This document shows positions 1,152 through 29,895 of a stretch of 64,000 bases of DNA, piece after piece. Source of the DNA: Pseudescherichia vulneris NBRC 102420 (GTDB lineage Bacteria; Pseudomonadota; Gammaproteobacteria; Enterobacterales; Enterobacteriaceae); assembly GCF_000759795.1 (NCBI RefSeq), contig NZ_BBMZ01000002.1, positions 124,001 through 188,000 of the forward strand. Reading direction: 5' to 3'. Position 1 is the first letter of the stretch. Every line of letters starts with the position of its first letter. A program made the translations under genes and the position numbers. Below the pieces are notes generated by a model that was not told where the DNA came from, made no database searches, and was given only the letters and a program-made list of their open reading frames with translations.

Positions 1152-1956
1152 GCTCGCTGCCTGCCGTAAAGGTAATCAGGCTGAGTGACAGCAGCGGGCT
1201 TTCACTCTGGTCGCTAAGCCACGCCTTCTGACCCAGCCCCTGATACAGCACGCCGTCGTTATCAAGCGGCAGCCATTCAGTCGCCCGACCCAGCTTGACG
1301 TCGTCAGCCGCATCGGACTCAAACGGATAGCGCGCTGGAAGCTGGCAGACCTGCTCGGTGCCATCGGTCAGGCGAACCAGCGCGTGACGCCACACCAGGT
1401 CGGTGACGCTGGCCGGAGCCTGAAAACGGATCTCTTCGATGGCGCTAAAGGGCAGCCAGAAATAGCGGCCGTTGAGGATAGTTTCACAGACCGGCCCCAG
1501 GCGCGCGTCGCCATCCATCAGCCATGCAAAGGCCTGGGTCTCTTCGTTATCAAACGTAAGCAGGCCAGCGCTGGCCTCTGCCTGCTCCAGCGCCTCAAGG
1601 CGTAGCGTCCGGGCGCGCTCCCCGGTTTCAGCCAGCGCCGAGGCGAGCGTAGCCAGCCAGGGCCACTGCGTATCCGGCATTGACGGACGCGCCAGGCCTG
1701 CCATAACTTGGGCACGCTGCAGTTCCCCCTGCATGGCCTGCTCAAGCAGCGTCACGGTAGGCTTCGCCTGTGGCTTCATTGCCAGCCAGCTTTTCAGCTG
1801 GGTTATCGCCCGCGTCCAGTTACCGCTCAGGGCCAAAAACTGAACAAACGCGGCGCGCAGATCGGCATCCGCCGGACGGGATTTGATCTCGGTTTCCAGG
1901 CGCAGCAGGGCGTCATTAATCGACTCATTACCCAGATGTTGATAAAGCGTATTCAT
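1144..1956 (-). CDS. tagJ: T6SS accessory protein TagJ (ImpE/SciE family)
   Basis: A 270-residue cytoplasmic protein of the ImpE/TagJ family. The N-terminal half is helical and TPR-like (residues about 1-130: LRLETEIKSRPADADLRAAF, LSGNWTRAITQLKSW). The C-terminal half contains the family signature around residues 155-200 (WLMDGDARLGPVCE, NGRYFWLPF, IRFQAP). In other systems TagJ binds the N-terminus of the sheath protein TssB and helps ClpV recognise it. Here it sits between the periplasmic gene at 1966-2949 and tssE, overlapping tssE by 8 bases. TagJ is not universal in T6SS; its presence fits the posttranslationally regulated subtype that also carries TagH and PppA. Confidence 0.88.
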   Translation of the reverse strand: MNTLYQHLGNESINDALLRLETEIKSRPADADLRAAFVQFLALSGNWTRAITQLKSWLAMKPQAKPTVTLLEQAMQGELQRAQVMAGLARPSMPDTQWPWLATLASALAETGERARTLRLEALEQAEASAGLLTFDNEETQAFAWLMDGDARLGPVCETILNGRYFWLPFSAIEEIRFQAPASVTDLVWRHALVRLTDGTEQVCQLPARYPFESDAADDVKLGRATEWLPLDNDGVLYQGLGQKAWLSDQSESPLLSLSLITFTAGSEHE

Positions 1957-1965
1957 AGCGGCTCC

Positions 1966-2949
1966 TTAGTTCGCGGCGCGCCAGGCACCGACCGCAGGAT
2001 CACGCAGCTGCGGGCGCAGCGCATCGACCAGGACAATTTTGAGCGTGGCATTAGGGGCCAACCACGGGGTCCAGAGCTGCTTCACGGCCTGCAAACGCGT
2101 CTGCAGTTGCGCATCGTCGCTGGCCAGCTCCTGAGAGACCTGCACCACCACCGTACCCTCGCTCTTCCAGCTGTTAAGGGCACTGTCGTAAGGCAGGATC
2201 ATCCAGCTCTGCTCGCTACCTTTGGTGCTGAAAACCATGCGCTCTTTATTCACGGAAGTGATGAGTACATCGTCCGCATTAACGCTGTCGCTCAGGCCAG
2301 TGACCGGGAAGCCGTGAACATAGGTCACCGGAGTCTCCTGCTGCCCGCTGCTGCTGGCCTGCGTCATTACAGCATGACCGCTCAGCCAGCTGCCTTTTTC
2401 ACAGCTCGCCGTGCCGGATGCCGGAATAAACAGCGCCGGTGCGGCCGCACCGCCCTGCCAGAAGGTACGCAGATGACAGCCGTTTTGCAGCGTAAACTCC
2501 TGCCACGGCGTGCGATCCGCCGCGACCGAGAGCGTTTCCGGATTAACGGCAGGCGGGACCAGCGCATCGTTAGTGGCTGCGGTTACCTGCGGCTGCGTCT
2601 GCGCGACTGTGACCGCCCACTCCTTGTTTTTATTCGCCGTACCCTGAGCCAGCGTGGCACCCGCAGGATCGTTCAGCGTCCACGACAGCTGCTGCAGCTT
2701 GCCGCACTGGTTTTCCAGCAGCGCGCCCAGCCGAGGCATAAAGCTGTCGAGTATTGAGACCTCTTTATTGCCGTTCGCCACGATGCGTAACGCGACGTCT
2801 TGCTTACACCAGCTCTGCGGCGTTTTGTCCTTGATATCGTCTATCCAGATATCCAGCTTTTGTGAAGGCGACTGCACGATGCGATAGTTTTCAGCCTGTG
2901 CGGTGCCCGCGACAGCCAGAAGCGCCAAACCCGATAGCCAAAGTTTCAT
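1966..2949 (-). CDS. T6SS-linked periplasmic protein of unknown function
   Basis: The protein begins at the ATG at 2949, which follows an AAGGA ribosome site. An in-frame ATG 8 codons upstream exists but would spoil the signal peptide. Residues 1-19 (MKLWLSGLALLAVAGTAQA) form a clear Sec signal peptide with an AQA cleavage site, giving a mature periplasmic protein of about 308 residues. Four cysteines (in SWCKQDV, ENQCGK, NGCHLRT and ASCEKG) could form two disulfides. I recognise no catalytic motif or named domain. It lies 20 bases after pppA and 9 before tagJ, inside the T6SS operon, so a role in T6SS assembly or control at the envelope is inferred from position only. Confidence 0.75.
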   Translation of the reverse strand: MKLWLSGLALLAVAGTAQAENYRIVQSPSQKLDIWIDDIKDKTPQSWCKQDVALRIVANGNKEVSILDSFMPRLGALLENQCGKLQQLSWTLNDPAGATLAQGTANKNKEWAVTVAQTQPQVTAATNDALVPPAVNPETLSVAADRTPWQEFTLQNGCHLRTFWQGGAAAPALFIPASGTASCEKGSWLSGHAVMTQASSSGQQETPVTYVHGFPVTGLSDSVNADDVLITSVNKERMVFSTKGSEQSWMILPYDSALNSWKSEGTVVVQVSQELASDDAQLQTRLQAVKQLWTPWLAPNATLKIVLVDALRPQLRDPAVGAWRAAN

Positions 2950-25092: not shown

Positions 25093-27654
25093 ATGAGTAC
25101 ACAAGAGAACTTCGACGCCCACACGCCCATGATGCAGCAGTACCTGAAGCTGAAAGCCCAGCATCCGGATATCCTGCTCTTCTACCGGATGGGGGATTTT
25201 TATGAGCTGTTCTATGACGATGCGAAACGCGCTTCGCAGCTGATGGACATCTCCCTGACTAAACGTGGTGCCTCGGCGGGTGAACCCATTCCGATGGCGG
25301 GCGTGCCGCATCACGCGGTGGAGAACTATCTGGCGAAGCTGGTGAGCCTCGGTGAGTCGGTGGCCATTTGCGAACAGATTGGCGATCCGGCCACCAGCAA
25401 AGGGCCGGTTGAGCGCAAGGTGGTGCGCATCGTCACGCCTGGCACCATCAGCGATGAAGCGCTGCTGCACGAGCGTCAGGACAACCTGCTGGCGGCCATC
25501 TGGCAGGACAGCAAAGGCTTTGGCTACGCTACCCTGGATATCAGCTCCGGGCGTTTTCGCCTGAGCGAGCCAGCGGATCGTGAGACCATGGCCGCTGAGC
25601 TCCAGCGCACCAATCCGGCAGAGCTGCTCTACGCCGAAGATTTTGCCGAGACCGCCCTGATAGAAGGCCGTCGCGGTCTGCGCCGCCGTCCGCTGTGGGA
25701 ATTTGAGATCGATACCGCCCGCCAGCAGCTGAACCTTCAATTCGGCACCCGCGATCTGGTGGGCTTTGGCGTCGAGAATGCTACGCGCGGCCTGTGCGCT
25801 GCGGGCTGCCTGCTACAGTATGTGAAAGATACCCAGCGCACCTCCCTGCCCCACATCCGGGCAATCACTATAGAGCGCCAGCAGGACAGCATCATTATGG
25901 ATGCTGCGACCCGCCGTAACCTGGAGATCACCCAGAACCTGGCCGGCGGCATTGAGAACACCCTCGCCTCGGTGCTTGACTGCACGGTCACGCCGATGGG
26001 TAGCCGCATGCTTAAACGCTGGCTACATATGCCGGTGCGTGACATTAAAACGCTGACCGAGCGCCAGCAGACCATCGCCGCGCTACAGGACGCCACTGCA
26101 GAGCTCCAGCCGGTGCTGCGTCAGGTCGGCGATCTGGAGCGTATTCTGGCACGTCTGGCCCTGCGCACTGCGCGCCCGCGCGATCTGGCTCGCATGCGTC
26201 ATACCTTCCAGCAGCTCCCCACCCTAAGAGAGATGCTGGCCGAAGTCGATAGCGCGCCGGTACAGCGGCTGCGGGAGACGATGGGCGAATTTAACGAGCT
26301 GCGCGAGCTGCTGGAGCGGGCAATCATCGATGCCCCGCCGGTGCTGGTGCGCGACGGCGGCGTGATCGCCCCCGGCTATAATACCGAGCTGGACGAGTGG
26401 CGCGCCCTGGCGGATGGTGCAACGGACTATCTGGATAAGCTGGAGATCCGCGAGCGCGAGAAGCTGGGTCTCGACACCCTGAAGGTAGGCTATAACGCGG
26501 TGCACGGCTACTTTATTCAGATCAGCCGAGGCCAGAGCCATCATGCGCCTATTCACTACGTGCGTCGCCAGACCCTGAAGAACGCCGAGCGCTATATCAT
26601 TCCCGAGCTGAAAGAGTACGAAGACAAGGTGCTGACCTCGAAAGGCAAAGCGCTGGCGTTGGAGAAGCAGCTCTATGACGAACTCTTTGACCTGCTGATG
26701 CCGCACCTGGCCGATCTTCAGCAGAGCGCCAGCGCCCTGGCGGAGCTTGACGTGCTGGTTAACCTGGCCGAACGCGCCTACACCCTTAACTACTGCTGCC
26801 CAACCTTTAGCGATAAGCCGGGCATCCGTATTAGCGAAGGGCGTCATCCGGTGGTTGAGCAGGTGCTGAACGAGCCGTTTATTGCCAACCCGCTGAACCT
26901 CTCGCCACAGCGGCGGATGCTGATTATTACCGGGCCCAACATGGGCGGTAAAAGTACCTATATGCGCCAAACCGCGCTGATTGCTCTGCTGGCCTATATC
27001 GGCAGCTACGTCCCGGCGCAGAAGGTAGAGATTGGCCCTATCGACCGCATCTTCACCCGCGTAGGCGCGGCGGACGATCTGGCCAGCGGGCGTTCAACCT
27101 TTATGGTAGAGATGACCGAAACCGCCAACATCCTGCACAACGCCACGGAAAATAGCCTGGTGCTGATGGATGAGATCGGGCGCGGCACCTCCACCTACGA
27201 CGGGCTGTCGCTGGCGTGGGCCTGCGCAGAGAACCTGGCGAACCGCATTAAGGCGCTGACCCTGTTTGCTACCCACTACTTCGAGCTGACCCAGCTGCCG
27301 GAGAAGATGGAGGGCGTGGCTAACGTGCATCTTGATGCGCTGGAGCACGGGGATACTATCGCCTTTATGCACAGCGTGCAGGATGGCGCGGCCAGCAAAA
27401 GCTATGGCCTGGCGGTAGCGGCCCTGGCGGGCGTGCCGAAAGAGGTGATAAAGCGCGCCCGGCAGAAGCTGCGCGAGCTGGAGAGCATTACGCCAAACGC
27501 AGCGGCCACCCAGGTCGATGGAACGCAGATGTCGCTGCTTGCCGCACCGGAGGAGACGCATCCGGCAGTTGAGGCGTTGGAGACTCTCGACCCCGATACC
27601 CTTTCTCCGCGCCAGGCGCTGGAGTGGATCTATCGCCTTAAGAATATGGCGTAG
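25093..27654 (+). CDS. mutS: DNA mismatch repair ATPase MutS
   Basis: An 853-residue MutS, the length of the E. coli protein. The mismatch-reading Phe-X-Glu motif is intact (F36 and E38 in [10 protein letters not shown]). The Walker A motif is [15 protein letters not shown] at about residues 612-626, followed by the [23 protein letters not shown] and ATHYFELT motifs of the ATPase site. The C-terminal tail with the tetramer/beta-clamp region is present ([17 protein letters not shown]). MutS binds base mismatches as a dimer and recruits MutL. Nothing suggests a mutator defect. It is transcribed away from the T6SS operon and followed by osmC in the same direction. Confidence 0.98.
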
Positions 27655-27716: not shown

Positions 27717-28145
27717 ATGACGATCCATAAGAAAGGTCAGGCACACTGGGAAGGCGACATCAAAGGCGGTAAAGGCACCATCTCTACCGAGAGCGGCGCA
27801 TTAAAGCAGCAGCCTTACGGTTTTAACACCCGCTTCGAAGGCGCGGCCGGGACGAACCCGGAAGAGCTGATCGGTGCTGCGCACGCGGGCTGCTTCTCTA
27901 TGGCGCTGTCCTTGATGCTGGGTGAAGAGGGCTATACGCCGGAGAGCATCGACACCACGGCAGATGTGTCGCTGGATAAGGTCGACGGCGGCTTCGCGAT
28001 CACTAAAATCGCGCTGACCAGTACGGTGAAAGTGCCGAATATCGAAGAAGAGACCTTCGATAAGATCATCAACAAAGCCAAAGCGGGTTGCCCAGTTTCC
28101 CAGCTGCTGAAGGCGGAGATCACTCTGGACTATACGCTCAATTAA
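27717..28145 (+). CDS. osmC: Osmotically inducible peroxiredoxin OsmC
   Basis: A 142-residue OsmC, nearly identical in length and sequence start (MTIHKKGQAHWEGDIKGGKG) to E. coli OsmC. The two redox-active cysteines are present: one in GAAHAGCFSMALSLML near residue 60 and one in KAKAGCPVSQLLKAEI near residue 125, with the conserved Arg/Glu in NTRFEG and NPEELIGA. OsmC reduces organic hydroperoxides and is a dimer in the cytoplasm. In E. coli the gene is far from mutS; here it lies in the mutS-rpoS interval, converging on rpoS, with which it shares a bidirectional terminator. Confidence 0.95.
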   Translation: MTIHKKGQAHWEGDIKGGKGTISTESGALKQQPYGFNTRFEGAAGTNPEELIGAAHAGCFSMALSLMLGEEGYTPESIDTTADVSLDKVDGGFAITKIALTSTVKVPNIEEETFDKIINKAKAGCPVSQLLKAEITLDYTLN

Positions 28146-28225: not shown

Positions 28226-28257
28226 GAAAAAGGCCAGTCAGATGACTGGCCTTTTTT
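28226..28257. terminator. Bidirectional terminator between osmC and rpoS
   Basis: AGGCCAGTCA-GA-TGACTGGCCT (28231-28252) is flanked by an A-run on the left and a T-run on the right, so it can stop both osmC (plus) and rpoS (minus) transcripts. Confidence 0.9.
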
Positions 28258-28270
28258 GGAATGGTGTCGC

Positions 28271-28621
28271 TTATTCGCGGAACAGCGCTTCGATATTCAG
28301 TCCCTGCGTCTGCAGAATTTCACGCAGACGACGCAGACCTTCAACCTGAATCTGACGAACGCGTTCACGAGTCAGGCCAATCTCACGGCCCACATCCTCA
28401 AGCGTTGCAGCTTCGTAGCCCAGCAGACCGAAACGACGTGCCAGCACCTCACGCTGTTTGGCGTTCAGTTCGAACAGCCATTTGACGATGCTCTGCTTCA
28501 TGTCATCGTCCTGCGTGGTGTCTTCCGGACCGTTATCTTTCTCATCGAAAGCCTCAACTCCGTTCTCATCAAATTCCGCATCTTCATTTAGATCATGAAC
28601 TTTCAGCGTATTCTGACTCAT
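28271..28621 (-). pseudogene. rpoS: RNA polymerase sigma factor RpoS with large in-frame internal deletion
   Basis: The gene starts at the expected ATG 28621 behind the normal TAGGAGCCACCTT leader and ends in the normal RpoS C-terminus, but encodes only 116 residues instead of about 330. Residues 1-28 ([10 protein letters not shown] ... AFDEK) are the RpoS N-terminus. Residue 29 onward ([15 protein letters not shown]) is the segment that in E. coli follows ILADEK near residue 243. About 214 codons (642 bases by E. coli length) covering sigma regions 1.2, 2 and 3 are missing; region 4 with its helix-turn-helix ([20 protein letters not shown]) remains. The joint is at a repeated Asp-Glu-Lys. 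Without region 2 it cannot bind core RNA polymerase normally or melt -10 DNA, so it is almost surely non-functional as a sigma factor. Confidence 0.93.
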
Positions 28622-28740
28622 AAGGTGGCTCCTACCCGTGATCCCTGAACAAAATCTCCATACCCCTTTTCTTAGTCGCGGCAGCGGCTTTTGCACAAGC
28701 TGCCACGGCAAAGCAAAGATAGTATAACGACTTTGCCAAA

Positions 28741-29895
28741 TTATCGCTGCGGTAAATAACGCAGCGGGTTGACGGATTTCCCCTTGTAACGAATTTCAAA
28801 ATGCAAACGTGTAGAACTGGTTCCGGTGCTACCCATGGTAGCTATCTTCTGCCCCGCCTTGATGTCTTGTTGTTCCCGGACCAGCATCGTATCGTTATGG
28901 GCGTAGGCACTCAGGTAATCATCGTTATGTTTGATGATAATAAGATTACCGTAACCGCGCAGAGCGTTACCGGCATATACCACGCGTCCATCTGCGGTCG
29001 CGACGATAGCCTGGCCTTTCGACCCTGCGATATCGATCCCTTTATTGCCACCTTCGGTTGCAGAGAAGTTATCGATAACGTTGCCATCAGTAGGCCAGCG
29101 CCATGTTGAAATCGGTGCGCTGGTTGACGTACTGCTGGCTGTCGGTTCGGTGGTACTTACCTCAGAATTACTAACCGTAGGTGCTGTAACAGGCGCTGTG
29201 ACTACCGTCGCAGGCTTGTTGTTCGGCAACATTTTGTTAGCACTCTGTTCACCTGAGTCCTCAGAATACGTAATTGTCGGTTGCGGCGCAACTACTACGG
29301 TTGATTTTTGTGCAGGCGGAGTCACGATTCCTTGCGCGGAAGCATCGGCCTGAGTGATTGCATTACCGCCAGTAATTGGCGTACCGGATGAATTCCCGAC
29401 CTGGAGAACTTGCCCGACATTCAGGCCATACGGGGCGGCAACGCCATTCCGCTGGGCCAGATCACGGAAATCATTGCCCGTTACCCAAGCAATGTAAAAC
29501 AGTGTGTCACCGCGTTTCACAGTGTAAGTGCTGCCGCCAGTATAGCTACCTTTCGGAATGTTCCCATACTGACGATTGTAAACAATTCGACCATTTTGCG
29601 TCTGAACTGGCTGCGACGTCACCGGTTGAGGGGTCGCTGGCTGAATGGTCGTTGGCGGCGCGATAACCGGCTGAACCGGTTGAATTTGCGGTGCCTGCTG
29701 CGGCGTACTGCCCATCTTCGGTGGAGGGGTAATTAACATCCCGGATTCGGTGCTGCTGCCGGAGGCGTTGCCGCCGTCAACCGAGCTTACCGGTGCGGGT
29801 GGATTACCAGAATTTGAGCATCCTGCCAGCCAGAGCGAAACCAGTGACAGTGCCGCAATCCGGCTTAAGGTGAATGTTGGGCTTCCCGTGCTCAT
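28741..29895 (-). CDS. nlpD: Murein hydrolase activator NlpD
   Basis: A 384-residue lipoprotein: signal with LWLAGC lipobox (Cys26), a proline/glutamine-rich linker (residues about 50-105), a LysM domain ([19 protein letters not shown], about residues 122-165), a second low-complexity linker, and a C-terminal LytM/M23 domain ([20 protein letters not shown] ... [18 protein letters not shown]) in which the metal ligands are degenerate. NlpD activates the amidase AmiC at the division septum. In E. coli the main rpoS promoter lies inside nlpD, so this gene also sets rpoS transcription. It is intact and follows pcm. Confidence 0.96.

Follow-up and report, generated by a model that had tools for sequence, protein, structure and literature searches.

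How did rpoS, the gene for the general stress regulator, come to be so short in Pseudescherichia vulneris NBRC 102420, and can its product still act as a sigma factor? The window (the whole 64,000-nucleotide stretch of contig NZ_BBMZ01000002.1 analysed here) carries on its minus strand, at 28271–28621, a 351-base reading frame of 116 codons and a stop. As references we used both other genomes of the genus that were examined, G001 (rpoS locus L122) and G002 (L121), each of which has an intact rpoS of 330 codons (2/2). The first 28 and the last 88 residues of the 116-residue product are identical to residues 1–28 and 243–330 of these two proteins and, together with the position after nlpD, this identity marks the locus as rpoS by ancestry; the 214 codons in between, exactly 642 bp, are absent and the reading frame is retained. 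A first-pass annotation of the sequence had described an in-frame loss of about 640 bases, taking sigma regions 1.2 to 3, with the two ends joined at an Asp-Glu-Lys (DEK) motif that occurs twice in full-length RpoS. Alignment with the congeners and Pfam searches confirmed the loss, and the motif is indeed found at residues 26–28 and 240–242 of the full-length protein.

The surroundings of the gene are preserved. Its upstream neighbour nlpD (28741–29895, minus strand, 384 aa) is intact; in E. coli, nlpD carries the main rpoS promoter. On the opposite strand lies an intact mutS (25093–27654, plus strand, 853 aa), which relatives match over nearly the full length. Leader and ribosome site adjoin the start codon (28622–28670, minus strand), and over its last 44 aligned bases the leader is the same in the window genome and both congeners. 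A terminator-like hairpin of 13 pairs followed by a T-rich tail lies 3′ of the gene (28227–28256, minus strand) and has a counterpart in both congeners, so that leader, ribosome site and terminator proved, on comparison, to be as intact as first described. Scanned with Rfam at the gathering score, the window yielded no match. Between mutS and rpoS there is a gene that we read as OsmC-like (27717–28145, plus strand), and the mutS–rpoS interval with this gene varies among relatives.

Very probably a deletion rather than an assembly artefact

With 54 contigs the assembly is a draft, and an assembler might have collapsed an intact rpoS at the short repeat described below; the culture might also have been mixed. 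We regard the collapse as very improbable. Assembler word lengths exceed the 11 bp of that repeat, a large contig spans the junction, and the assembly is listed with a completeness of 100 and a contamination of 0.11. Moreover, a search of the assembly with the L122 counterpart of the missing segment (641 bases) found no stray copy, its sole match (67% over 207 bases) falling inside an RpoD-like match. A full-length second rpoS elsewhere in the genome, which would have overturned the first-pass reading, was likewise sought across the assembly and not found: an E. coli RpoS query returned the two pieces of rpoS plus matches of 42%, 29% and 26%, which from their identity and length appear to be RpoD-like, RpoH-like and FliA-like, respectively, and the five sigma region 2 matches in the assembly are ordinary paralogues.

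The deletion ends lie on a short direct repeat

In L122, the 11-bp sequence CGATGAGAAAG starts at bases 75 and 717 of rpoS, i.e., the two perfect copies are 642 bp apart. In a scan for direct repeats with copies at least 20 bp apart, this pair was the longest of the four repeats of at least 9 bp in L122 rpoS. The window has a single copy, at 28537–28547 on the minus strand (nt 75–85 of the 351-base frame), and immediately after it comes GATAACGG, just as after the 3′ copy in L122. L121 has CGATGAAAAAG as its 3′ copy, which matches CGATGAGAAAG at 10/11 bases, and we therefore infer the exact parental repeat from G001, the pair in G002 being imperfect. The expectation that the repeat would flank the missing part on both sides in close relatives thus held perfectly for L122 and with one mismatch for L121, while the repeat itself is, at 11 bp, one base longer than first proposed.

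Merely having an 11-bp repeat is ordinary for such a gene, as a repeat of at least 11 bp was found in 69 of 200 codon-shuffled versions of rpoS. The telling point is that the ends of the deletion sit on the longest repeat of L122 rpoS, which is far from chance. Deletion via short direct repeats, the cause suggested at the outset, is thus well supported by a junction that keeps one copy of the L122 pair. The 642-bp segment would have been dropped in a single step, by slipped strands or annealing, and the length of the repeat suggests that this step was RecA-independent. For E. coli K12, the accessible part of one report documents deletions at short direct repeats that do not depend on RecA (PMC5426353). 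The frame was retained because both copies have the same codon phase, each encoding DEK.

The remaining product

By Pfam, the intact RpoS of L122 has regions 1.2, 2, 3 and 4, whereas region 4 alone is found in the window protein (28318–28480, minus strand; remnant residues 48–101; Sigma70_r4, full model 1–50), which thus does not have the complete set of four regions that we take to define a working group-2 sigma factor. Core polymerase and the −10 element are contacted mainly through region 2, and region 3 makes the extended −10 contact. With both absent, the product should not direct transcription, and judged by its domains the remnant should not be a working sigma factor: without region 2 it could neither hold core polymerase nor open promoters, which would leave the general stress response off. 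The parts needed for activity are gone and there is no second copy, as in a loss-of-function allele. Going by the sequence, rpoS is almost certainly switched off by loss of its middle two thirds, and we infer with high confidence that RpoS activity is absent.

Could the remnant do something else? An AlphaFold2 model built on a 29-sequence alignment gives pLDDT values below 50 for residues 1–31 and of 89–97, by blocks of ten, for residues about 41–100, all of which are helices; the remnant is thus predicted to be a disordered tail followed by a folded region 4. From this model one may suppose that region 4 could touch the polymerase flap or −35 DNA. The first-pass suggestion that the fragment interferes with polymerase has its sole basis in this predicted fold, and it is a possibility that gained no support here. 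In its fuller form, this alternative holds that the 116-residue remnant is made and active, either as a region 4 decoy that contacts the flap of polymerase or the −35 DNA, or as a binder of a sigma-interacting partner. The remnant retains its leader, start, ribosome site and frame, and its region 4 is complete by Pfam with a confidently predicted fold (residues about 41–100), but we nonetheless consider an active remnant highly unlikely. The 20-mer spanning the junction was found in three of the 167 loci compared, all three from the window genome, so that no second genome with the allele was found among these loci; the silent-only changes described below either predate selection on the remnant or are too few to show it; and our search of the literature, much of it accessible only in part, found no paper on an active natural region 4 remnant of RpoS. 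Similarly far-fetched, in our view, is a stable region 4 miniature that would remain under the normal rpoS controls, build up in stationary phase and damp transcription at −35 elements or the flap. The proposed build-up would follow from the loss of the RpoS degradation signal and the Crl site, both of which we take to lie in the deleted part, with Crl presumably binding domain 2.

Age of the loss

The surviving 351 bases differ from L121 at five positions and from L122 at eight, all of them silent third-position changes, and crl and the RprA RNA are present in all three genomes of the genus. Since the differences are silent only, and leader, ribosome site, terminator, crl and RprA are all kept, the loss looks recent. 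This retention fits recency without proving it, because decay of a null allele takes time. One might instead suppose that RpoS was lost long ago throughout the species as its life style changed, and not just in one isolate. Older- or larger-looking losses of rpoS do occur in the family (in G129 the gene has decayed, and in G134 and G259 the loss runs from mutS to rpoS; see below), but the absence of any non-silent change in the surviving codons, the retained crl and RprA, and the normal genome size make an old loss unlikely.

Comparison with known losses of rpoS

Very probably, then, this is a loss-of-function rpoS allele that arose when the segment between two short direct repeats was deleted, and that selection or drift has maintained, whether in nature or in a laboratory. 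The allele may have risen through faster growth or better scavenging of cells that lack RpoS, be it in nature or during isolation and storage. This fits the published picture, as far as the accessible portions of the following papers go. On poor carbon sources, rpoS loss through substitutions, deletions and duplications is strongly selected (PMC2700278); selection for rpoS loss has also been described in long stationary phase (PMC7858067) and under trimethoprim (PMC8483737), and a review states that laboratory handling may select for attenuation (PMC7527412). The window allele is a further example of this known kind of event. As in the GASP and nutrient-trade-off alleles of E. coli and Salmonella, for which selection is documented in the sections available (PMC2700278, PMC7858067, PMC7527412), a local mutation inactivates rpoS and leaves the neighbours intact. 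It differs from the E. coli and Salmonella alleles in being a clean 642-bp in-frame loss, whereas those are, in the same partial sources, point changes, small indels, duplications or larger losses extending into the neighbours. Point changes or short deletions, another kind of allele, are what we found in the available text of three further reports (PMC2947995, PMC2744996, PMC4759930), and the loss of rpoS along with its neighbours is represented by a 17,491-bp deletion that takes mutS and rpoS (PMC7845604).

Two cases come closer in one respect each, again judging from the accessible text. EHEC 86-24 carries an 8-bp duplication of GAAGAGGA in rpoS (PMC1852560), like the window allele a short-repeat change in the same gene, although it is a duplication with a frameshift and not an in-frame deletion. 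L121 and L122 both have a 9-bp pair of TGAAGAGGA near the place of this duplication. The type strain of Shewanella algae has a truncated rpoS (PMC8340859) and is thus, like the present strain, a sequenced reference strain without a working rpoS, albeit from another bacterial family. In the literature searched, which was mostly without subscription journals and in part accessible only as excerpts, we recognized no description of a natural isolate whose rpoS has lost a segment in frame between direct repeats. The allele shows a clean, datable route to the loss of a general stress regulator: one 11-bp repeat pair, one step, and the frame kept.

How common such losses are

Among 5,426 complete E. 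coli genomes, 5,364 had a match to rpoS, and in 5,350 at least 80% of the gene was found in one place. The middle 642 bp were matched in 5,363 genomes, with at least 80% of the segment in 5,355. More than 20% of rpoS is therefore absent in one place from at most 14 of the 5,364 genomes with a match, and these include at least one strain that is, judging by its name (JW5437-1), an engineered laboratory strain. Internal rpoS deletions of such size are thus rare, while rpoS loss itself is not. The clean in-frame loss had been called unusual from the sequence, and this was right as regards the size of the deletion in E. coli; the event as such is unsurprising, as rpoS loss is common and the frame follows from the codon phase of the repeat.

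For the family, we sampled 392 Enterobacteriaceae genomes, 265 of them (a hand count from the table) of at least 3.0 Mb. We scored rpoS as badly broken or missing when the best RpoS match had an E value worse than 1e-150, a cut chosen after seeing the table and one that misses small lesions near the gene ends, e.g., in G261. Eight of the 265 genomes failed it, namely the window genome, G029, G030, G107, G129, G134, G201 and G259, counting G030, which is given as 49% complete and whose broken frames may be sequencing errors. The rpoS gene of G261 has a frameshift near its start, yet passes the cut.

A parallel case is G201 (L169 1258–2178, G201:C1). Its rpoS has independently lost 78 bp (26 codons) in frame where regions 1.2 and 2 meet, between short repeats that code for ARR; these repeats share 5 to 7 identical bases in the congeners L216 and L218. 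As in the window, the deletion is in frame and lies between short repeats, in a member of the same family, but the loss is far smaller, leaving 306 aa with regions 3 and 4 untouched. Other genomes among the eight show other lesions. G029 has no rpoS; the start of nlpD runs in-frame into a regulator-like sequence (L220 9323–10906, minus strand, G029:C1) that we read as probably DeoR-type, with mutS adjoining. In G134, neither mutS nor rpoS nor a close nlpD was found, while G259 (L227) keeps 196 residues of mutS and has no close nlpD or rpoS; mutS and rpoS are full-length in the congeners of these two genomes (G240, G326). The mutS–nlpD–rpoS stretch is gone wholly in G134 and largely in G259, and such a loss would remove mismatch repair too. 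In G107, rpoS is cut after about 188 residues (L223, G107:C43:10000-13600), and in G129 it has decayed into several broken frames. Near the G107 gene, on the opposite strand, there is a reading frame that we call Fic-like for what we take to be its Fic motif.

Together with G201, G134 and G259, the window genome indicates that genomes chosen to represent a species are often without RpoS, which matters for phenotype or stress work with such strains. As a minor observation, rpoS of G284 (L166, bases 1501–2490, minus strand) starts with TTG and not ATG.
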